The notes under the pieces were generated by a model. The model saw only the letters and a program-made list of their open reading frames with translations, was not told where the DNA came from and searched no databases. Made by a program: the position numbers and the translations under genes. Below are positions 1-1,822 of a stretch of 64,000 bases of DNA, piece after piece. Position 1 is the first letter of the stretch. Every line of letters begins with the position of its first letter. Origin of the DNA: an uncultured Nitrospiraceae bacterium (GTDB lineage Bacteria; Nitrospirota; Thermodesulfovibrionia; Thermodesulfovibrionales; SM23-35); the NCBI GenBank assembly GCA_937138415.1, contig CAKZPA010000037.1, positions 1-64,000 on the forward strand, given 5' to 3'.

Positions 1-1485
1 CGGGTTCACCTCATAGAGGAGACGGTTTGCGCTATCGTAGGCCCTAATATTGACGAACATGCGTCTCCCTTCCGGGAAACCGGAGATGAGCTTATGGCCG
101 GTCTGATTCTGTATCCTGAAAGAGAGACCGCCGGACGCTGCGTCGTACGTTGCGTTTTGAATGGAGGCAGCCATCCTGAGCTGCTGTTTTGCTCGGTCTG
201 CTCCACCGAGAAGCGCAGACGGATCGAGGGGTTCACCCTGCGTGAGGTCGAGCGTGAGGACCAAAGGACCCTGCCGAAGGAGCTGTGCATTCGTAGCGTT
301 ATAGTTCGGCGATCCCGATACCGTACTCGCCAGGATGGAGGCAATCCAGGCATTGCCGCCGGTCAGGTCGTGAATGGGTTGTCCGCTCTTCGGGTGCTCA
401 ATGCTGCCGCTCGGTCTGTTCACGCCGTCGTTCTGGCTGCACGCCTTCCCTACTCCATCTTTCATGTGGCAGTCCTGGCACTTCGAGATATAGTTCCCGG
501 GGGTGGACGTTTTGAATACGCTCGGCGCGAACGGACCGACGCCGGGGGCCCCCCCTTGCTGTCCGTACGCAGAGAGCATGAACTCCGAGAACGTCCGCTC
601 GACGTGGTAGAACGAATACGCGGGATTCACCTCCGTCGGGAGGGGTTGTGTCGGATTCGCTCCCAAATTCGCCAGTACGGGATTCGAAACGTCGTGGCAG
701 GTCGCGCACATATACTTGGACTTGTGGTAGCGGCTGTAGAGAATATTGTGTCGCGCGGACGCGTCGGCAAAAGACGCCCGCTTGTCGCGCGTTCCACTCA
801 GGAACATCTGTCCGGATGCATTTTCCGTATAGTTCGGACTGATAGGTTGATTGTTCGCTCCAAAAAACGGCGTCCCGTTGAAGTTTCGAACGCCGAGAGA
901 GAGAGACTTGTCCGCAGTGTACGTCTTCAGCGCAGCGGTGTTCGAGGGCGTACGGCTCAGATTAGTCTCATCCCAGTAGTTCAACCAGTCGCTCCCTTCC
1001 CGGCTGCCGGCGTAGGTGCTTTCGAAGAATGGGTCGAATGCGTGATGACACACGTCGCAGTGTACCCCAGAGAAATCGTCCCCCTTCATGAGAGAAGCGT
1101 TCGTCGGATCGGAACGCCCTTCGATCCAACCTTGCGGTAAATGGCAGCGGAGACAGATATCGGTCGCGTTCGGGCTGCCGATTGCCCAGATCGAATCCTG
1201 TGCGCTGACCGTCAGGCAGGCCCAGAAGAGCGGGTCGCGCGCAGACTGTGCCATCATGGATCCTTTCCAGTTGTACGTCGGCTCGATCGCCGCGTTGTAA
1301 CCCCCGTGACAATTCGTGCATCGGGTCGGCGCCTCGAGCGTGACAGCCCCCTCAGGTGGCGGCTGCGTGCCGGGCATTCTGACGAGTGGATCGTCTTTCA
1401 CCGCTTTCGGCGTCCAGGCGAGCGCGTACCCGCCGAGAAACACGAAAACGAATATGCATGAGTACACAAAAAGCTTTTTCATCAT
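1..1485 (-). CDS. Secreted multiheme cytochrome c family protein (3' end beyond window)
   Basis: This frame is open from an ATG-ATG at 1485 to the window edge (495 codons). It is absent from the ORF track, presumably because its stop lies outside. The start follows a strong ribosome site (GAGAGGAGGACAAG). The N-terminus is a signal peptide (MMKKLF then a hydrophobic run to YALA). Five CxxCH haem motifs are readable: CTNCH, CLRCH, CDVCH, CATCH and CQDCH, the last followed by Met. The C-terminal part visible (ending with NQTGHKLISGFPEGRRM) lacks haems and resembles the beta-rich tail of large periplasmic cytochromes. Likely role is periplasmic or extracellular electron transfer; the redox partner cannot be inferred. 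All ORF-track lines over this region are shadows. Confidence 0.9.
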   Translation of the reverse strand, partial: MMKKLFVYSCIFVFVFLGGYALAWTPKAVKDDPLVRMPGTQPPPEGAVTLEAPTRCTNCHGGYNAAIEPTYNWKGSMMAQSARDPLFWACLTVSAQDSIWAIGSPNATDICLRCHLPQGWIEGRSDPTNASLMKGDDFSGVHCDVCHHAFDPFFESTYAGSREGSDWLNYWDETNLSRTPSNTAALKTYTADKSLSLGVRNFNGTPFFGANNQPISPNYTENASGQMFLSGTRDKRASFADASARHNILYSRYHKSKYMCATCHDVSNPVLANLGANPTQPLPTEVNPAYSFYHVERTFSEFMLSAYGQQGGAPGVGPFAPSVFKTSTPGNYISKCQDCHMKDGVGKACSQNDGVNRPSGSIEHPKSGQPIHDLTGGNAWIASILASTVSGSPNYNATNAQLLRQGPLVLTLDLTQGEPLDPSALLGGADRAKQQLRMAASIQNATYDAASGGLSFRIQNQTGHKLISGFPEGRRMFVNIRAYDSANRLLYEVNP

Positions 1486-1521: not shown

Positions 1522-1566
1522 CAAAAAAGCCGAACAGCCTGTTTCATATCCTTCGGCAGTTCGGCT
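1522..1566 (-). terminator. Rho-independent terminator in the cytochrome leader
   Basis: On the minus strand AGCCGAAC and GTTCGGCT form a perfect 8-bp stem (1559-1566 with 1528-1535) followed at once by six T residues. It lies about 40 nt upstream of the cytochrome start codon and reads toward it, so it would stop transcription before the gene unless prevented. This is an attenuation layout. Confidence 0.75.
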
Positions 1567-1669
1567 GTGCCCCGTCACCTTCGGCATCCGTCACTTTCCG
1601 CTCCCCCCGAGAGGTGGGATCGGCTTTATCGGGATAACAGGCGCAAATCGCTTATTTCTTATGCGTTAT

Positions 1670-1696: not shown

Positions 1697-1822
1697 TTTC
1701 TCTATTTATTAACTAAATTATATATATATTTTCTCATGCTGTCAAGAACAATTTTCGCGCGGATTTCGGCAGATGCCATCGTGACCGATAACAGGCCGTT
1801 GCCTGTGATTATTTGGCCTTTA

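Follow-up and report, generated by a model that had tools for sequence, protein, structure and literature searches.

GEMM-I RNAs sense the bacterial signal c-di-GMP or the related cGAMP. Among the closest described systems are the GEMM-Ib riboswitches of Geobacter, where cGAMP (3′,3′-cyclic GMP-AMP) riboswitches such as those of pilM and pgcA sit before cytochrome genes (PMC9262584, PMC6456294). The pilM riboswitch of G. metallireducens works as an ON switch, with a terminator that locks away the ligand-pairing C75 (PMC9262584). Here we describe a leader RNA from an uncultured Nitrospiraceae bacterium, found in a window of 64,000 nt (the whole stretch of DNA that was analysed), which is a diverged GEMM-I riboswitch fused to a transcription terminator before a multihaem cytochrome gene. 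Riboswitch class, expression-platform type and target-gene type are all known, and the arrangement has already been described in Geobacter, which makes the locus essentially ordinary in kind. It shares with Geobacter GEMM-Ib the apparent ON design, a terminator that captures the aptamer strand carrying the ligand-pairing C, the cytochrome gene downstream and a C21-G46-type P2 of the kind seen in the AAUACU copies of a Desulfuromonas metagenome-assembled genome (MAG), but it differs in carrying G20 rather than A20 and in missing the GNRA loop.

Results

A diverged GEMM-I aptamer in the cytochrome leader

The sense strand of the cytochrome gene is the minus strand, on which the following features were placed (window coordinates).

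1717–1745, minus strand: sigma-70 promoter TTGACA-17-TATAAT (12/12), reading towards the riboswitch; consensus match only
1551–1633, minus strand: GEMM-I (c-di-GMP-I clan) riboswitch aptamer with P1, P2 and P3; from RF03167 and our own-order model R1
1598–1623, minus strand: P2 stem-loop with C21-G46 and C22-G45 pairs and one A/G mismatch; from the pair table
1558–1595, minus strand: P3, made up of P3a (1595–1588 with 1564–1558) and P3b (UGCC 1586–1583 with GGCA 1571–1568); from the model alignment and pair table
1523–1566, minus strand: intrinsic terminator AGCCGAAC(U)GCC...GGC(U)GUUCGGCU followed by U6; from its fold, cotranscriptional folds and shuffles
1–1485, minus strand: multihaem c-type cytochrome gene; from Pfam Cytochrom_c3_2 / Cytochrome_C7 and the open reading frame

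A scan of the window at Rfam gathering thresholds returned nothing besides two tRNAs, which on its face would favour an unrelated, undescribed cis-regulatory RNA, as the first-pass annotation had proposed. Scanning the leader with E-value reporting, we obtained a single, full-length match at 1633–1551 on the minus strand to c-di-GMP-I-GGC (RF03167), with 34.1 bits and an E-value of 3.4e-6 in 701 nt. The gathering cut-off of this model is 59 bits, and the default scan is clean because the window copy scores below it. We also used R1, a covariance model trained on 33 copies from this genome and its order, the window excluded, which matched the window copy at 51.6 bits (E 5.3e-13) as its sole match up to E 10 in the 64 kb, and again at E 1.8e-11 in a separate whole-genome run. 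Both models give significant matches to the c-di-GMP-I clan (CL00126), so that the known-class hit that the first-pass annotation had named as grounds for refutation was found in substance, though below the gathering score. No Rfam model scores the window copy and its sisters higher than RF03167, but strict membership of that family was rejected on score and on residue 47, where copies here have A (A1597 in the window) and the consensus has G; the ‘GGC’ of the family name presumably refers to residues 20, 47 and 92.

The same genome holds four more, clearer GEMM-I copies, scoring 63.7, 59.9, 48.4 and 40.8 bits with RF03167 and 57.2, 53.2, 55.3 and 37.3 bits with c-di-GMP-I (RF01051). The latter scores all exceed the RF01051 cut-off of 35, whereas the window copy was not listed by that model at E up to 1. 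Across 101 genomes (the window’s own and 100 relatives), the element was found in 49 by R1 and in 47 by RF03167. In an alignment of 68 copies, which leans towards the model because it was fitted to it, 92.9% of aptamer pairs are standard (32–48% when slid), and 242 cells have changed on both sides compared with 72.8 in shuffles and 20–56 when slid, with both-sides changes in 19 of the 21 aptamer pairs. Covariation in homologous leaders, whose absence would have spoken against the first-pass annotation, is strong. A47 is present in all 86 distinct copies. With RF01051 the window copy has in common the three-helix aptamer, G20/A47/C92, C44 with its P3 partner G, and covarying helices, and it departs from that family in lacking the GNRA loop and in having C21-G46 in place of G21-C46. 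Model matches, covariation and a conserved pocket place the leader in a known family; an undescribed RNA class was ruled out on these grounds, and we regard it as extremely improbable.

Pocket residues are retained although P2 has diverged

Positions are given by alignment to the Vc2 numbering. The window copy keeps all three pocket residues, G1624 (G20), A1597 (A47) and C1556 (C92), as well as C44 (C1600), the AAA of J2/3 and G1565, the G left unpaired in the internal loop of P3, such that both residues of the C44-G83 tertiary pair, C1600 and G1565, are present; G1621 could act as a competitor for C1600. Within P3a, 1595–1593 and 1590–1588 pair with 1560–1558 and 1564–1562, and P3 carries G/A and A/C mismatches. 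The strict aptamer fold has an unimpressive energy, and the unconstrained minimum-free-energy structure of the aptamer is a different fold. We dropped minimum-free-energy folding as evidence because its z values (−1.75 for the complete element and +0.24 for the isolated aptamer) carried no information.

The window copy deviates at 9 of 33 conserved columns, making it the second most deviant row of 68. Four of these columns form two compensated P3 pairs (U1593-A1560 and G1585-C1569), while the other five lie close together in P2, namely A23G, A25U, the first and last positions of the GNRA tetraloop, and G43A. The P2 apical loop is UCUC (1612–1609), replacing the GNRA tetraloop that docks into P3; 83 of the 86 distinct copies have a GNRA loop and the window copy is one of the three that do not. 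Binding by the Cd1 riboswitch was abolished when A24-26, at the site proposed for the P2-P3 tetraloop contact, were changed to U (PMC9262584). What most calls the function of the window copy into question is the loss of this nearly invariant GNRA loop, without which its affinity may be weak. The loss, together with the further deviations in P2 and P3, could also mark a decaying riboswitch, with an aptamer past binding and a constitutive or leaky attenuator left behind. However, the P3 3′ strand, terminator, U-run, pocket residues and consensus promoter all stand intact before an open cytochrome frame, and several of the P3 changes are compensated. We consider decay unlikely and favour a GEMM-I riboswitch that probably still binds its ligand.

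The terminator captures the P3 strand and C92

The perfect terminator facing the cytochrome gene that the first-pass annotation had read from the sequence is present on the minus strand, with AGCCGAAC at 1566–1559, GTTCGGCT at 1535–1528 and a T run at 1528–1523. In isolation it folds at −18.0 kcal/mol, and a perfect 8-bp arm pair with T5 within 60 nt was seen in 0 of 5000 dinucleotide shuffles of the leader. The stem extends inward from its 8-bp arms through GCC 1557–1555 and GGC 1539–1537, pairing 1566–1555 with 1539–1528 and burying C1556 (C92) in the terminator. We considered whether the palindrome might simply terminate the neighbouring mutS on the plus strand and rejected this, as the palindrome carries A’s rather than T’s on that side; a plus-strand terminator scan returned other weak stems, this palindrome not among them. 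A second inverted repeat, GGCTCCAT/ATGGAGCC, lies at 1696–1670 on the minus strand, between the promoter and the aptamer and near the expected 5′ end of the transcript.

The 5′ arm of the terminator is the P3 3′ strand of the aptamer; with this strand shared and C92 buried, aptamer and terminator are mutually exclusive. A cis-regulatory RNA with mutually exclusive folds was thus correctly anticipated, although the switch lies in a different pairing from the one first suggested, in which GGCA chose between two TGCCGAAGG repeats (1586–1578 and 1558–1550 on the minus strand), one choice enclosing the terminator arm and the other freeing it. GGCA at 1571–1568 can indeed pair with UGCC 1586–1583, but GGCA and this first TGCC form the P3b helix, and the second TGCC is the ligand-pocket/P1 strand holding C92. 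The decisive competitor is P3a, which pairs with the terminator arm itself, and we replaced the GGCA/TGCC alternative with this P3a/terminator overlap. The elements noted at 1522–1600 are likewise present, but the whole is longer, with the aptamer at 1633–1551 and the terminator at 1566–1523. Overall, the first-pass reading of the sequence was good; the evidence does not bear out its proposal that the class is undescribed.

In folds of the growing transcript, the lowest-energy structure close to the aptamer’s end (transcript end 1556) contains both P2 and P3, and the terminator appears only after 1535–1529 have been made. As in the pilM-type ON platform, the terminator uses the aptamer strand that carries the ligand-pairing C. 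In the ligand-free state, the downstream GGCUGUUCGGCU would pair with the 3′ strand of P3 and with the UGCC that holds C92, forming the terminator and stopping transcription ahead of the cytochrome gene. On binding of a cyclic dinucleotide, G20 and C92 would pair with its bases and A47 would stack between them, and P3 and P1 would keep hold of the strand, allowing transcription to read into the cytochrome gene. The anatomy of aptamer and terminator points to ON as the direction of control. We are fairly confident that this GEMM-I riboswitch acts on the cytochrome gene through transcription termination and is an ON switch.

GEMM-I copies in the order fall into two subclasses (A2/A3 alignments, for example L027, L036 and L053 as opposed to L001, L004 and L017). 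In the C21-G46 subclass the terminator takes the P3 strand, the ON type, whereas the G21-C46 subclass has a separate downstream terminator (GCCUGUUUCC..GGAAACAGGC) and looks like an OFF design. The aptamer 3′ strand and the terminator 3′ strand form a strong duplex in C21-G46 copies (median −20.8 kcal/mol, 30 of 40 at or below −12) and a weak one in G21-C46 copies (median −9.7, 12 of 44 at or below −12), a contrast with an odds ratio of 8 and p of 2e-5 over the 86 distinct copies, relatedness being ignored. Within the C21-G46 subclass, strands paired better with their own partners than with swapped ones (−19.4 vs −16.4, sd 0.47; 0/300), which indicates that aptamer and terminator strands are kept complementary. 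Two other genomes (G002 and G007) carry tandem GEMM-I aptamers (L010, L053, L054 and L012) before genes for apparently secreted proteins.

The association with this cytochrome is an exception

The cytochrome frame runs from 1485 to 1 and is cut off by the start of the contig, which is also the start of the window. A gene piece at another contig end (L081, G000:C57:1-675) is 94% identical to residues 271–495 of the window cytochrome and is a paralogue or strain variant that probably broke the assembly. We found the cytochrome at 31 loci scattered over many phyla. Its 52–70% identity in distant phyla (L084–L112; Chloroflexota, Planctomycetota, Pseudomonadota, Desulfuromonas) suggests horizontal transfer. 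Among the orthologues examined with R1, just one other is preceded by the element, that of the Desulfuromonas sp. BM509 MAG, which is 69% identical; its R1 element scores 56.2 bits, and in its leader P3 strand and terminator overlap just as they do in the window copy. Since 28 of the 29 close orthologues have at least 300 nt of upstream sequence, the association of riboswitch and cytochrome is the exception and not the rule.

Cyclic di-GMP as the most probable ligand

Under a rule attributed to Kellenberger 2015 and Nelson 2015, A20 marks GEMM-Ib (cGAMP) aptamers and G20 those for c-di-GMP. The window copy has G1624 at this position, and every copy found in its genome has G20. Of the two cyclic dinucleotides that the first-pass annotation had rightly named as candidate ligands, c-di-GMP is most probably the one recognized and cGAMP is the second choice. 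Rare A20 copies in the window’s own order (L059, L068 and L121) are possible cGAMP-type aptamers. In the Desulfuromonas sp. BM509 MAG (G101, L124–L143), twenty GEMM-I matches exceed the cut-off; among them are both G20 copies and tandem AAUACU (A20) copies, and the proteins encoded after the A20 pairs carry CxxCH haem motifs. These AAUACU copies are probably of the Geobacter cGAMP type; text searches for published aptamer sequences returned nothing relevant.

The same class and mechanism could operate with cGAMP as the natural ligand, as for the Geobacter cytochrome leaders. The lower-P2 C21-G46 pair and the ON platform are both common to the AAUACU copies of the Desulfuromonas MAG, and position 20 is a selectivity factor and no hard filter, with mutations there and in lower P2 tuning or shifting selectivity (PMC9262584). 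The window’s own genome further encodes a GGDEF protein (L043:1501-1974; G000:C8:9471-9944, minus strand; NDEYGHLIGS ... GGDEF) with Ser at the Hypr position, as placed by motif and not by structure. This serine is a signature of cGAMP-making Hypr enzymes (PMC6456294). The protein is found at 68–84% identity across most of the order, all 18 of its readable orthologues there retain the serine, and its motifs make it a candidate cGAMP synthase outside Geobacter. A cGAMP response is possible because the genome carries this protein. On the other hand, position 20 is G rather than A in every copy found in the genome, and the genome also encodes further, canonical GGDEF proteins, so c-di-GMP is probably made too. 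Across genomes the Hypr gene and the riboswitch tend to occur together (44/5/22/30, odds ratio 12). Since this association is largely confounded by family, we rejected it as a sign of cGAMP specificity. We regard cGAMP as the natural ligand as doubtful, and keep c-di-GMP as the preferred reading. A broader version, in which the C21-G46/G20 subclass of the order, the window copy included, answers cGAMP from the order-wide Hypr GGDEF protein, the window copy doing so without the usual GNRA docking, strikes us as quite improbable; if true, cGAMP control of cytochromes would reach well beyond Geobacter, and position 20 alone would not fix the ligand.

Discussion

The locus illustrates that a default Rfam scan can overlook diverged GEMM-I switches. 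Its lack of a GNRA loop makes the window copy a natural test of how dispensable that tertiary contact is, and because G20 aptamers occur here alongside a Hypr-type cyclase present order-wide, the choice between c-di-GMP and cGAMP can be tested outside Geobacter. With this riboswitch, an uncultured order joins the bacteria that appear to put cytochrome genes under cyclic-dinucleotide control.
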